From NCBI GenBank assembly GCA_029561455.1, contig JAKQIY010000030.1, positions 62,001 through 126,000 on the forward strand: DNA of 64,000 nt, written 5' to 3'. Positions 30,223 through 36,115 of this stretch are shown here, one piece after another. This stretch comes from a bacterium (GTDB lineage: Bacteria > Zhuqueibacterota > Zhuqueibacteria > Residuimicrobiales > Krinioviventaceae). Under the pieces are notes generated by a model, which searched no databases, was not told the DNA's origin, and worked only from the letters and a program-made list of their open reading frames with translations. A program made the translations under genes and the position numbers. The stretch's first letter is position 1. Each line of letters starts with the position of its first letter.

Positions 30223-31896
30223 TTACCTTACCAGCACCAGTTTTTTATCCAGTGTCAGATTATTGGCTTTAAGGCGATATAAATAGACGCCGCTGGCTAC
30301 TTTATTGCCGCTGTTGTCCAATGTGTCCCAGGTTACCTGGTGCGCGCCGGCAGTGTATTCCATGGCGCCCAGTTCCCGCACCAACCGCCCTTGCAGATCA
30401 AATATCTGGATCGCGGCGCGGGAACGCTCCGGCAGGTAGAACTCGATGGTGGTGGAGGGATTGAATGGATTGGGATAATTCTGGCCCAGTTGGAAAGCAA
30501 CCGGCTGTGATTGTCCAGCTTGTTGTTCAACCGCTGTTTGGGAGTAATCGACCACCAGGGTATCCGAGATGATTTCCATGCCGTCTTTAAAGCTGGCAAC
30601 GTAGAACAGGCAGGGAGCGTCGAATTTAACGCTGGTGCGATGGGAGGTATAGGCGCCGCCGCGATAACCGGAAATCGGGTTGTATTGTTCATCGGTCTGA
30701 TATTTTTTGTACAGTTTTATGCATTCACCTTCGTTGGTGGTGCGAATAAAGTTGACATCGACCTGCACATTGGTTTTGTATTTTTTAAATTCCGCCCAGT
30801 CCAGGATAGGAGCATGCAGGCCGCCGTTGGCTTGCAATATTTTGAATTCGCGCAGGTAGAACTGGTCGTCGCTTGCGGCCGCGCCGGTAAAGGTAAAACG
30901 AACATATTCGGCTTGTACAGGAGCAATTTTATCGATGCCGAATTTACTGGTATCGGTACGGGCGGTTTGATCGACTACCGTAGTCCAGACGCTGGAATCC
31001 GATGAAACTTCGATGGTATATTGGTAGCCCTTGCCGCCAACATCGAAAAAGCTCTGGAACATGTCGATTTCGGTCGGCTGGCCCAGGTCGATGATCGCCC
31101 AAAGGGGTAGACCGTTATCGCCCCAGAGAGTATTATAGTTACCATCATTTAATTCGAGGCCAAAATAACCAACAACATTGCCTGTTCCCGAAGGACCGCC
31201 CATTGTAACCACCTTGTTCAACGCCACGTTCACATCCTGAACCTGACGCAGTTCATTGCCGGTAAATTCTTTATAAAGGATTTGCGCCATCAAAGTATGA
31301 CCGTCAACATTGGGGTGAATGCAATCCGGGAACAGATCGGCTCTGCTGAGCAGCGGAGTATAGAAATCGACCTTGTGGGCGCCGGTTTCCGCCAGCATGG
31401 TATCGACCATGGGGATAATATCGGCGGTAATAACTGAATCCCGAATGTCGAAATTGACGCAAAACGCCGGCGGGGGGTAGGAAAGGAAAAATTGTGGTTC
31501 TTTATCGCCCTGGGAAAAAGTATCGATCATGGCGCGATAATCGTCCAGGTATTCGTCCTTATAGATCCAGTTATAGGGTTTGGTGTCGTTCGTGCCCAGC
31601 AGTATGATGACGATATCGGCATCGAGCGCCAGGGCGTCTTTGAAAAACTGTTCATTCCAGATCGGGTAATCGCCATGTCTCAGCATAGTCCGGCCCGAAA
31701 CGCCAAAGTTGTGTACATCATAAAGCGGTCCCAGAAAAGCGCCTAATTGTCCGGGATAGCTGTCCGTTGCCGGGTTGTTTATTCCGGCGCCGATGGTAAT
31801 ACTGTTGCCGATGACAGCAACCTTGAGAGTATCGCCGGGTTCGGCATACAGGCACGATACCAGTAATAAAACAAGCAAAAACAGGGTTCTTTTCAT
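30223..31896 (-). CDS. Secreted SGNH/GDSL esterase with discoidin-like domain and T9SS sorting domain
   Basis: A signal peptide (about 1-18; LVSC within it also resembles a lipobox) leads to an SGNH hydrolase domain at about 22-215: VIGNSIT with Ser32, GVSGRT, LLGTNDT and the C-terminal DCIHPNVDGH with the Asp-His pair. All four blocks are intact. A coagulation-factor-5/8-type domain follows (about 225-360), suggesting carbohydrate binding. The end (about 470-557) is a sorting module with LGQNYPNPFNPST, IFDLQGRLVREL, WDTLDNSGNKVASGVYLYRL and KKLVLVR. That module marks cargo for the type IX secretion system. The likely role is deacetylation of polysaccharide outside the cell. Confidence 0.87.
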   Translation of the reverse strand: MKRTLFLLVLLLVSCLYAEPGDTLKVAVIGNSITIGAGINNPATDSYPGQLGAFLGPLYDVHNFGVSGRTMLRHGDYPIWNEQFFKDALALDADIVIILLGTNDTKPYNWIYKDEYLDDYRAMIDTFSQGDKEPQFFLSYPPPAFCVNFDIRDSVITADIIPMVDTMLAETGAHKVDFYTPLLSRADLFPDCIHPNVDGHTLMAQILYKEFTGNELRQVQDVNVALNKVVTMGGPSGTGNVVGYFGLELNDGNYNTLWGDNGLPLWAIIDLGQPTEIDMFQSFFDVGGKGYQYTIEVSSDSSVWTTVVDQTARTDTSKFGIDKIAPVQAEYVRFTFTGAAASDDQFYLREFKILQANGGLHAPILDWAEFKKYKTNVQVDVNFIRTTNEGECIKLYKKYQTDEQYNPISGYRGGAYTSHRTSVKFDAPCLFYVASFKDGMEIISDTLVVDYSQTAVEQQAGQSQPVAFQLGQNYPNPFNPSTTIEFYLPERSRAAIQIFDLQGRLVRELGAMEYTAGAHQVTWDTLDNSGNKVASGVYLYRLKANNLTLDKKLVLVR

Positions 31897-32317: not shown

Positions 32318-32806
32318 ATGAACAAATTCCAAATTTATTTGCTTTGTGTAATTTTTGTTATTATTTGTTGCTGTGAGCGGCACAAACAAGTCTCTGAATC
32401 TCTTAATAGTGGGGATGCAGTGATTGGTTATGGGACATCTTTTGGCGAGTGTAGCGGGTATTGTATTAAAGAGTTAAAACTTGACCAACTAGTCATTACT
32501 TTCAGGGCATCGAGTTGGTTACCCGCCGATTACCCGGATAAAATACTACAGGATGTGATTGAGCGGAACGAGTATGAACAATTACAAAGTCTGGTTAATT
32601 TTAACAAAATAGCGGCTTTTGATGATGTTATCGGTTGCCCGGATTGCGCCGACGGCGGCGCTGAATGGCTTGAAGTGATAACTGATGATCGCTATAAAAA
32701 AATTACTTTTGAAAATGGTGATTCCCTGGCAACAATACAGCCCTTAATAAACAAACTCAGGCAAATGTATACCGATTATAACCGAAGCATGTTTCCGATA
32801 AACTGA
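32318..32806 (+). CDS. Cysteine-rich small exported protein of unknown function
   Basis: The 162-residue protein has an N-terminal hydrophobic segment ending in three cysteines (VIICCC). This may be a poor lipobox or a signal anchor. The mature part has the motif GTSFGECSGYCIKEL and a second Cys pair (IGCPDCADGGAEW), so two disulfides are possible. Similar FGxCxGYC proteins occur in Bacteroidota, but I do not know a function. It is a single gene with 163 bases to the SpoIIE-type receptor, the same orientation, and could be co-expressed. Confidence 0.65.
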   Translation: MNKFQIYLLCVIFVIICCCERHKQVSESLNSGDAVIGYGTSFGECSGYCIKELKLDQLVITFRASSWLPADYPDKILQDVIERNEYEQLQSLVNFNKIAAFDDVIGCPDCADGGAEWLEVITDDRYKKITFENGDSLATIQPLINKLRQMYTDYNRSMFPIN

Positions 32807-32969: not shown

Positions 32970-35342
32970 GTGCTGAGGTATATCTCTGTTCTTTTACTGG
33001 GTATTTTTATTATTTCGGGTTGTACCCCGGTTGATAAAGCCAATAATAAAACCGTCACAATTCGAGTCATTCCTCCGGCAATGCCGACGGGCAGCCGGGT
33101 TTATATAGTAGGCGATAGCAGCCGGTTGGGCTACTGGACACCCGGACGTGTGCCGATGACCATGCAGCCGGACAGCAGTTGGACTAAAACTTTGGTGTGC
33201 AAAAAGGGCGTTTTCTTACAATACAAATTTACCCGCGGTTCATGGGAATCTGAAGCTGTTGATGAAAACGGCGTCGAATTAGCCAATGCCACTTATTGGG
33301 TGGAAAAGGATACCACCCTGGTATACCGCATTATAAACTGGCGCGACCAGGCAGAATTTAAGACAATAATTAGCGGCAAACGGCTGGAAAACAAAGGGGG
33401 GAACATGGAGTTACTGGAAAACTGGCTTTATCATCCGGGAGACGACAGTAGTTGGGCGGCTGTCGATCTGGTCGACAGTAGTTGGGAAAAAGTAAATCCG
33501 CTTTTATATATGAATAATCTGCCGGCCGGCGGCTGGACCGGCATCGGGTGGTTCAGACTCCATGTCGAGGTCGATTCAACATTATGGAATGTCCCATTTG
33601 CCATGTACCTGATGCATGCCGGAGCCGCCGATCTTTACCTGAACGGTAAATTATTGTATACGTTTGGCCGGGTTGGGAATTCAGCAGAAGAGGAAAAACC
33701 TTTTCTGGAACGCAATCCCCGCTACATCAGTTTTGATGCGCGCCCCGATCAGGTTTTGGCAATTCGCTACTCGAATTATAATATCCTGAAATATAAAAAA
33801 ATGATCACGACCGCCGGATTCCGTATAGAATTGGGAATTATCAATGACTATATTGCCAACCGCGTACAGCAGGCGCGGAGTCTTTCGATGTATCAGATGA
33901 TCTTTACAACTGCGCCGCTGGCTTTTGCCCTGGTGCACCTGCTTATTTTTATGTTTTCCCCCCGTATTCGCGAACATTTGTATTACTCTTTGTCCATGAT
34001 CTGTTTCGCCGTATTATCTTTTTTTATTTTCCGTTCCGATTTTTTAAATACCATCTCCAGCCTGCTCAGGAATAATATTCTCGCCAACATTGCGGCATTC
34101 TGGGCGGTGGCCTTTGCGCTGCTTACAACCTGTTACAACACTTCTGGGCGGATGCTCAAATTTTATTATCTCTTTATTGCTACGGCTTTGTTCCTCACAG
34201 TGACGATCTGGTTTTTCCCGGAACAAAACCAACTGATAACCATTACCTTTTACCTGTATCTACTGGCTGCTTTTATCGAAACGATACGAATCGTTCTGCG
34301 CTCCAATACCAGGCAAAAAGCTCATACGCTGATCATGGGATTTGGATTGATCGCAATGATTTTATTTATTATCTATCAACTCCTTATCGACCGGCAAATA
34401 CTACCGCCGCCCGGAAATGTTGAGGTGGTTTACGTTTATGGTATTCTCATTTTAGGTATTTCCGTTTCCGTCAGTTTATCACTCAATTTTGCCGGTACTC
34501 ATAAAAAATTGCAGCAGCAGTTAGACCAGGTTAAAAGGCTCTCGCAAAAGGCAATCGAGCAGGAACGCCACGCCCGTGATGAGGAAATTGCCCGTCGCCT
34601 GCTCGAAGCCGATAATGCCCGTAAAACCAAGGAACTGGAAGAAGCGCGCCGCTTGCAGCTTTCCATGCTACCCAAAACTCTTCCGCAATTACCAAACCTG
34701 GATATCGCCGTGTTTATGCAGCCGGCTACCGAAGTGGGAGGGGATTATTATGATTTTCACATTTCGCCGGAAAATACATTGACCATTGCCATTGGCGATG
34801 CTACCGGGCACGGCGCCAAAGCCGGCACTATGGTTGCTTCGGTTAAAAGTCTGTTCAACGCTTTTGGCGGTAACCTGGAAATTACCGATTTCTTTTTACG
34901 CTGTACCTCTATTCTTAAAGATATGAACCTGGGTAACCTCTACATGGCCCTGATGTTGTTACGTATCAATAGCGATAACACCCTCACCGCATCCGCCGCA
35001 GGAATGCCGCCTATTCTGATTTTCAGAAATGCCAACCGTAAACTGGAAGAACTGATTATTAAGGGTATGCCACTGGGCGGTCGGTTGGATTTTAGTTATC
35101 AAACGGAAAATACCGATTTGCAAGCCGGTGATACCCTATTGCTGATGTCCGATGGTTTTCCGGAACTGTTTAACGAAGAAAGAGAAATGCTTGATTATCC
35201 CCGTGTCCAGGAAATTTTTTCCGATAGCGCCACAAAATCCGCCCATGATATTATTGTTAATTTGCAAAAGAATATTGATAAATGGCGTAACGGCCGCCCG
35301 CAAAATGACGATATTACCTTTATCGTTATTAAAGTTAAATAA
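32970..35342 (+). CDS. Lipoprotein 7TM receptor with CBM20-like and jelly-roll sensor domains and SpoIIE (PP2C) phosphatase
   Basis: This 790-residue protein combines a lipobox (IISGC, Cys18) with a starch-binding CBM20-like domain (about 28-125: RVYIVGDSSRLGYWTPGRVPM, then QYKFTRGSWESEA). A second beta domain (about 150-290: WTGIGWFRLHVEVD, ADLYLNGKLLYTFG) resembles 7TMR-DISM extracellular or sugar-binding jelly rolls. About seven membrane helices lie at 305-510 and a coiled coil at about 515-570. The SpoIIE phosphatase ends it (about 575-790: VGGDYYDF, IGDATGHGAKAG, SAAGMPP, LLMSDGFPE, NDDITF), with the metal aspartates present. The GTG start at 32970 follows AAAGGA. It probably senses glycans and dephosphorylates an anti-anti-sigma protein. 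No such partner is adjacent. Confidence 0.88.
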   Translation: MLRYISVLLLGIFIISGCTPVDKANNKTVTIRVIPPAMPTGSRVYIVGDSSRLGYWTPGRVPMTMQPDSSWTKTLVCKKGVFLQYKFTRGSWESEAVDENGVELANATYWVEKDTTLVYRIINWRDQAEFKTIISGKRLENKGGNMELLENWLYHPGDDSSWAAVDLVDSSWEKVNPLLYMNNLPAGGWTGIGWFRLHVEVDSTLWNVPFAMYLMHAGAADLYLNGKLLYTFGRVGNSAEEEKPFLERNPRYISFDARPDQVLAIRYSNYNILKYKKMITTAGFRIELGIINDYIANRVQQARSLSMYQMIFTTAPLAFALVHLLIFMFSPRIREHLYYSLSMICFAVLSFFIFRSDFLNTISSLLRNNILANIAAFWAVAFALLTTCYNTSGRMLKFYYLFIATALFLTVTIWFFPEQNQLITITFYLYLLAAFIETIRIVLRSNTRQKAHTLIMGFGLIAMILFIIYQLLIDRQILPPPGNVEVVYVYGILILGISVSVSLSLNFAGTHKKLQQQLDQVKRLSQKAIEQERHARDEEIARRLLEADNARKTKELEEARRLQLSMLPKTLPQLPNLDIAVFMQPATEVGGDYYDFHISPENTLTIAIGDATGHGAKAGTMVASVKSLFNAFGGNLEITDFFLRCTSILKDMNLGNLYMALMLLRINSDNTLTASAAGMPPILIFRNANRKLEELIIKGMPLGGRLDFSYQTENTDLQAGDTLLLMSDGFPELFNEEREMLDYPRVQEIFSDSATKSAHDIIVNLQKNIDKWRNGRPQNDDITFIVIKVK

Positions 35343-35368: not shown

Positions 35369-36115
35369 ATGAAAGTCAAGATGATGAAAAAAATTCTATC
35401 TGCATGTTGTGCAATTTTTATAAGCTTGTTTGTTGCCGGATGTCAACATACTACCGATAAACTTGATATTTACCTGGTTACCGGCGGTCATGATTTTGAG
35501 CGGGAACTATTTTTTGCCATGTTCGATAGTTATCATAACCTGGATTATACGGAAATCAGTCATCCTGGCGCTAACGATTATTATACGCCGGAAAAAGCCG
35601 GGCTGGTCGATGTGTTTGTTTTTTATGATATGGCGCAGGAAATATCAAGTGAGCAAAAGACTGCGTTATTCAATTTGCTGGCTCAAGGCAAGGGGTTGGT
35701 ATTTCTGCATCACTCGCTGGCAGCTTATCAAAACTGGGATGATTTTGAAAAGATCATTGGCGGACACTACCATGAACAGCCTTTCAGCAGGGATGGTCAA
35801 CAATTCCCCGCCTCAACCTACAAGCATGATGTTGAAATGGATTTGCATATAAGCAATGCCAACCATCCGGTTACCGCGGGGTTGACAGATTTTAATTTGA
35901 TCGATGAGGTGTACGGCGGATTCTCGGTATTGTCGGGCATTACGCCGTTGTTAACAACCACCCACCCGGAATGCGGCAATCCCGTTGCCTGGGCGCACAC
36001 TTGTGGCAAATCCCGTATTGTATATATTCTCCCAGGGCATGACCATGTCGCTTACGCCGACGACAATTACCGGCGCCTGGTATGGCAGGCCATATGTTGG
36101 GCGGCCAATAAATAA
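35369..36115 (+). CDS. ThuA-like lipoprotein
   Basis: The lipobox FVAGC gives a lipoprotein. The mature part is a ThuA-like class I glutamine-amidotransferase fold: IYLVTGGHDFERELFFAMF, LVDVFVFYDMAQEIS, KGLVFLHHSLAAYQNW, GGHYHEQP, and GKSRIVYILPGHDHVAY near the end. ThuA domains are linked to sugar (trehalose) metabolism and are often found in exported glycan-related proteins. Catalysis is unproven. Possible starts are 35369 and the in-frame Met codons at 35381 and 35384. There is no clear ribosome site. It follows the SpoIIE receptor by 26 bases and may share its transcript. Confidence 0.82.
   Translation: MKVKMMKKILSACCAIFISLFVAGCQHTTDKLDIYLVTGGHDFERELFFAMFDSYHNLDYTEISHPGANDYYTPEKAGLVDVFVFYDMAQEISSEQKTALFNLLAQGKGLVFLHHSLAAYQNWDDFEKIIGGHYHEQPFSRDGQQFPASTYKHDVEMDLHISNANHPVTAGLTDFNLIDEVYGGFSVLSGITPLLTTTHPECGNPVAWAHTCGKSRIVYILPGHDHVAYADDNYRRLVWQAICWAANK

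Follow-up and report, generated by a model that had tools for sequence, protein, structure and literature searches.

The closest described relatives of the receptor reported here belong to the 7TMR-DISM group, which includes NicD, RetS, LadS and RgsP, and in which a periplasmic sensor is joined through seven transmembrane helices to a cytoplasmic signalling enzyme. A DISMED1 or DISMED2 domain is common in these receptors though not universal, and DISM receptors are widespread, with few known ligands. In NicD, DISMED2 has been linked to carbohydrate binding (PMC8544897). Described phosphatases of the RsbU, RssB and SiaA kind carry a SpoIIE/PP2C domain with intact motifs behind a conserved helical linker, and coiled-coil linkers have been reported to activate RsbU-type phosphatases by setting the phosphatase dimer (PMC12143880). 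CBM20 domains, as found in glucoamylase, CGTase, STBD1 and GWD3, share a common fold, an LGxW motif and the lysine of a YKF motif, and in GWD3 the domain has already been described as regulatory and of low affinity (PMC6243121).

The gene described here lies in a 64,000-nucleotide stretch of DNA (the window) from a member of the candidate phylum KSB1, and its product combines features of all of these systems. It has the layout of a 7TMR-DISM receptor, but its sensor pairs a CBM20 domain with a GH2-type jelly roll, neither DISMED1 nor DISMED2 being detectable, it begins with an N-terminal lipobox, and its output is a SpoIIE/PP2C domain rather than a kinase or GGDEF domain. Unlike RsbU, RssB and SiaA, the window protein takes its input through an integral membrane receptor whose ectodomain is of carbohydrate-binding type, and in contrast to known CBM20 domains, this one belongs to a signalling receptor rather than a glucan-metabolizing enzyme. 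The middle domain resembles the N-terminal sugar-binding domain of GH2 enzymes in both profile and fold, but the receptor lacks the catalytic GH2 barrel and the domain serves as its membrane-proximal part. In the open literature, to which our survey was confined, we found no report of a 7TMR-DISM or CBM20 domain joined with a SpoIIE domain or a 7TM bundle in bacteria. A CBM20-PP2C fusion is present in two algal PP2C7 proteins (PMC4524716), which are unrelated to the window receptor in architecture. The original prediction presented this locus as a candidate for an undescribed system; that wording is too strong, and the receptor is better described as a new input on the known 7TMR-DISM plan.

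The receptor reading frame has a GTG start, with an AAAGGA-type ribosome-binding site a few bases 5' of it, and encodes 790 residues whose domain order is certain (Table 1). An AlphaFold2 model of the whole protein, built on 12 sequences, has a mean pLDDT of 80.2 and contains the seven helices, a long helix at residues 488-565 and the phosphatase; the ectodomain model reaches a pLDDT of 88.8. The succession of lipobox, CBM20, 7TM DISM-like bundle, coiled coil and SpoIIE/PP2C domain that had been proposed for this gene is thus confirmed by Pfam, hydropathy, the model and 15 full-length sequences. The architecture did not arise by chance: the whole layout recurs across two groups, in 15 genomes altogether, and CBM_20 is matched by all 15 ectodomains individually (threshold E<=0.01 per ectodomain).

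Table 1. Positions of the receptor gene, the segments of its product and the two adjacent genes within the window.
Feature	Position	Strand	Basis or remark
Receptor gene: lipoprotein signal, CBM20, GH2-type jelly roll, 7TM, coiled coil, SpoIIE/PP2C	32970..35342	+	
Lipoprotein signal peptide, residues 1-18, lipobox IISGC with Cys18	32970..33023	+	Read from sequence; Cys aligned in 13/15
CBM20 starch-binding-type domain, residues 27-125; proposed site-1 residues W56, K86, W92	33048..33344	+	Pfam PF00686, fold, residue conservation
Jelly-roll domain, GH2 N-terminal (sugar-binding) type, residues 146-295	33405..33854	+	Profile and fold
Seven transmembrane helices, 7TMR-DISM_7TM, residues 306-504	33885..34481	+	PF07695, hydropathy, loop charges, model
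Long helix/coiled-coil transmitter into phosphatase, residues 506-589	34485..34736	+	Model and conservation
SpoIIE/PP2C phosphatase, residues 590-790	34737..35339	+	PF07228, conserved motifs, fold
ThuA-family lipoprotein, 26 bases 3' of receptor	35369..36115	+	PF06283, 92 bits; genus-level neighbour only
Cys-rich small lipoprotein, 163 bases 5' of receptor	32318..32806	+	No Pfam match; genus-level neighbour only

The assignment of the N-terminal domain to CBM20, on which the original prediction had staked its reading, is borne out by both Pfam and fold. In the window protein CBM_20 (PF00686) matches residues 29-96 with 27.9 bits against a Pfam cut-off of 23.3, and a profile built from nine KSB1 copies of the domain finds, among solved structures, the starch-binding domains of STBD1, beta-amylase, CGTase and glucoamylase (E 2.4e-6 and weaker). 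The modelled domain superimposes on the CBM20 of STBD1 in complex with maltotetraose (8x8k; Z 11.7, 2.1 A over 91 residues), and Z scores to 8x8k and 2z0b span 11.7-11.9. Residues of the proposed binding site are also retained: in the alignment of full-length receptors W56 is present in all 15, K86 in 14 (the lysine is missing in one relative) and W92 in 13, the exceptions being Leu in G056 and Phe in one other relative. By profile, W56 aligns to the LGxW motif and K86 to the YK of glucoamylase (1ac0), whose site-1 residues are W543, K578 and W590 in glucoamylase numbering; W92 was assigned by eye as the second site-1 tryptophan, as the profile alignments to PDB entries end short of it. Conservation of these three positions in a domain with a mean pair identity of only 34% across the full-length receptors argues for a retained binding site, and from these residues we infer, with good reason, that the CBM20 domain is a putative alpha-glucan sensor.

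The middle domain had been read as a sugar-binding-like jelly roll, with a search against 7TMR-DISMED suggested as a check; the jelly-roll reading stands, whereas the DISMED name does not. By profile, residues 146-295 resemble the GH2 N-terminal domain (E 1.4e-8 to 5uj6), the ectodomain profile matches 6d50 in this same GH2-type region with an E of 2.7e-10, and the jelly-roll fold matches the GH2 beta-glucuronidase 5uj6 with a Z of 13.0 and 2.7 A over 124 residues. No Pfam match to DISMED1 or DISMED2 was found in the receptor at E<=1, and an assignment of this domain as DISMED is without sequence support. No DISMED structure appeared in the fold-search list for the ectodomain, an absence that proves nothing. 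The 'sugar-binding' name of the GH2 domain does not by itself establish that the receptor's jelly roll binds sugar.

Seven hydrophobic segments follow the ectodomain in the hydropathy profile (residues 311-329, 341-359, 370-388, 398-416, 425-443, 455-473 and 486-504), and the loops on the cytoplasmic side carry positive charge; this topology agrees with the 7TM DISM-type bundle that had been forecast. The Pfam match to 7TMR-DISM_7TM (PF07695) at residues 307-504 is barely above its cut-off (29.8 bits against 29), and the score falls under the cut-off in several relatives. The lipobox cysteine, with its predicted processing, is aligned in 13 of the 15 full-length receptors and absent from those of G003 and G013, two relatives that indicate that lipidation is not essential. 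The receptor would reside in the inner membrane and carry its lipid at a periplasmic N-terminus, which would tether the ectodomain at both ends.

At the cytoplasmic end, SpoIIE (PF07228) matches residues 601-789 with 111 bits against a cut-off of 25, and D592, G609-D610, H614-G615, D728-G729 and D780-D781 are invariant in all 15 full-length receptors. The PP2C motif set is intact. Its closest folds are SiaA, the RsbU domain of Rv1364c and RssB, with a Z of 24.1 to the PP2C domain of SiaA (6k4e). Conservation peaks in the linker in front of the phosphatase, which has a mean pair identity of 0.56, compared with 0.31 to 0.44 for the 7TM, CBM20, jelly-roll and phosphatase regions. This high conservation fits the reported control of the phosphatase dimer by the linker (PMC12143880).

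The full-length architecture is present in six of 82 KSB1 genomes (G000, which is the host genome of the window, and G001, G003, G013, G050 and G056), with a seventh copy in G009 cut by a contig end, and in nine of 294 sampled genomes of the Ignavibacteria class. This recurrence identifies a conserved receptor type, and the CBM20-7TM-SpoIIE receptors form a real and conserved family. Beyond KSB1 and Ignavibacteria only CBM20-less receptors were seen, in Aminicenantes and Pyrinomonadaceae, other phyla having been covered without a systematic search; among the genomes searched it is common for a DISM receptor to have no CBM.

The receptor input is exchangeable, as CBM9 replaces CBM20 in one relative and others have no CBM. 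The receptor of G044 (L059:8538-11297) carries CBM9_1 at its front instead of CBM20, with 42.1 bits, and in the G003b receptor the CBM20 is missing with its flanks in place. On a tree of 26 receptors from which the CBM20 columns were left out, the CBM label changes at least three times. A tree placing all CBM20 receptors in a single clade was rejected (p-AU 8.9e-06), subject to caution over the long branch of Igna_275. This exchange of CBM20 for CBM9 offers a natural set for studying swapped receptor inputs.

The CBM20 cassette is not confined to receptors: it occurs on esterase lipoproteins as well, and within a DUF5687 permease. The CBM20-esterase lipoproteins of KSB1, and probably of Ignavibacteria, carry the same cassette after the lipobox, 34-36% identical to that of the window, but they are soluble hydrolases whereas the window protein is a receptor; Pfam Esterase was found in the two KSB1 copies that were checked. 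Many further CBM20 matches in KSB1 and the Ignavibacteria class, at about 380-400 residues, are of esterase size. We note that the DUF5687 family membrane protein (L059:12180-14042), a probable ABC permease with CBM20 inserted between its halves, adjoins an ABC ATPase gene and sits just upstream of the CBM9-type receptor gene of G044.

Taken as an alpha-glucan-sensing 7TMR-DISM phosphatase that would dephosphorylate a STAS antagonist, a reading to which we give about an even chance, the receptor may operate as follows. The CBM20 domain would bind an alpha-1,4-glucan chain (starch, glycogen, maltodextrin or a similar polymer) through W56, K86 and W92, and binding would re-orient it against the GH2-type jelly roll, which is predicted to sit directly on the first transmembrane helix. 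The 7TM bundle would relay the signal to the long helix, which would govern the dimer state of the SpoIIE/PP2C domains in the manner reported for RsbU linkers. Once active, the phosphatase would dephosphorylate a STAS-domain antagonist whose gene lies elsewhere, allowing the antagonist to bind an RsbW-type kinase and free its partner, most simply a sigma factor. GH13 alpha-glucan enzymes are present in the host genome, so alpha-glucans are probably part of the metabolism of the host.

The presence of the same cassette on esterase lipoproteins and the DUF5687 permease implies that it may do something more general than starch sensing. In a rival account, CBM20 would have lost the ability to read alpha-glucans and would serve as a beta-sandwich for structure or protein contact, the true ligand being a small molecule or protein recognized by the jelly roll, by the 7TM bundle or by some partner lipoprotein. 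Such a role would suit the mobility of the cassette across esterases, a permease and receptors, the abundance of DISM receptors without a CBM, and the G003b receptor, which, if functional at all, would work with its CBM20 cut out; it is nonetheless a less likely account than glucan sensing, given the retention in a domain of 34% identity of W56 (15/15) and K86 (14/15), both aligned to the starch site, and of W92 (13/15), placed by eye. With the alpha-glucan-sensing reading, the ectodomain brings a well-understood ligand class to a DISM receptor, whose ligand thus becomes directly and cheaply testable, and if correct it would be the first case known to us in which a starch-binding module supplies the input to a signalling phosphatase in a bacterium. 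A broader and decidedly speculative generalization, which we regard as rather improbable, is that KSB1 and Ignavibacteria possess a class of envelope receptors in which a lipid-tethered CBM20 measures polymeric alpha-glucan and controls partner switching directly, with no kinase or second messenger, the CBM being swapped (CBM20, CBM9 or none) to fit the polysaccharide of each lineage.

Components for partner switching are available in the host genome, which encodes 10 SpoIIE domains, eight STAS domains and five strong RsbW-type ATPases (HATPase_c_2), with a STAS-ATPase pair side by side on C69. The expectation that a STAS/RsbW pair would exist elsewhere in the genome therefore holds, although none is linked to the receptor: the nearest STAS lies about 93 kb away, on C61, and no STAS, RsbW or sigma gene was recognised near the receptor or its relatives, the neighbours of the relatives having mostly been read by eye. 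A linked STAS/RsbW/sigma pathway was accordingly dropped. Because of this, naming the STAS protein on which the phosphatase would act is a guess; control of a sigma factor by the receptor is plausible.

SiaA acts outside sigma control. As in SiaA-SiaC, the STAS target may serve a non-sigma output, for instance a diguanylate cyclase or machinery of secretion or the envelope; this would be compatible with the glucan-sensing input, and we rate it a real possibility, though less likely than not. SiaA is the closest solved phosphatase fold, the eight STAS domains of the host are of several kinds and outnumber its five strong RsbW-type ATPases, and no regulator is linked to the receptor gene; on the other side, RsbU and SpoIIE phosphatases are nearly as close in structure as SiaA, and the pair on C69 is of the classical STAS-ATPase form.

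Several other partner-switching loci were seen. In a dense cluster at G000:C51:75450-86000, five SpoIIE domains are packed into about 10 kb along with genes for a STAS protein and an RsbW-type ATPase, and at G000:C67:228145-231732 one open frame of 1488 residues contains both an RsbW-type ATPase and SpoIIE, followed about 2.7 kb downstream by a STAS protein gene. In the Ignavibacteria-class genome G234 a second, shorter SpoIIE phosphatase gene (L141:7148-8239) is located directly upstream of the receptor, and a SpoIIE gene similar to it is found in the KSB1 genome G050 (L055:14900-16048), about 3.5 kb from the receptor.

The genes flanking the receptor were originally suggested to be part of the same pathway, and here the evidence is confined to the genus. 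In the congener G001 the Cys-rich lipoprotein, the receptor, a 492-residue lipoprotein and ThuA follow one another on one strand; the Cys-rich copy adjoining the receptor is 47% identical to that of the window, and the ThuA copy is 56% identical, with one gene inserted between it and the receptor. Neither gene is near the other 13 full-length copies, some of which are on short contigs, and the suggestion is not sustained; as conserved partners of the receptor both were dropped beyond the genus. That the receptor and the two lipoproteins make up one envelope pathway, with both lipoproteins acting at the ectodomain, would be in keeping with their shared strand, the absence of a plus-strand terminator-like site from the gap between receptor and ThuA, and the same order of all three genes in G001. 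We consider it very unlikely, since both genes are absent beside those 13 receptors (short contigs again noted) and the Cys-rich family, found in nine of 82 KSB1 genomes, occurs in six of them where the full receptor was not found. Members of this Cys-rich small lipoprotein family (GTSFxxCSGYC ... GCPDCADGGAEW) often lie in larger frames, of about 290-310 residues. Elsewhere in the window, the minus strand at 30223-31896 encodes a GDSL esterase that also carries an F5/8-type domain and, at its C-terminus, a sorting signal like those of type IX secretion.
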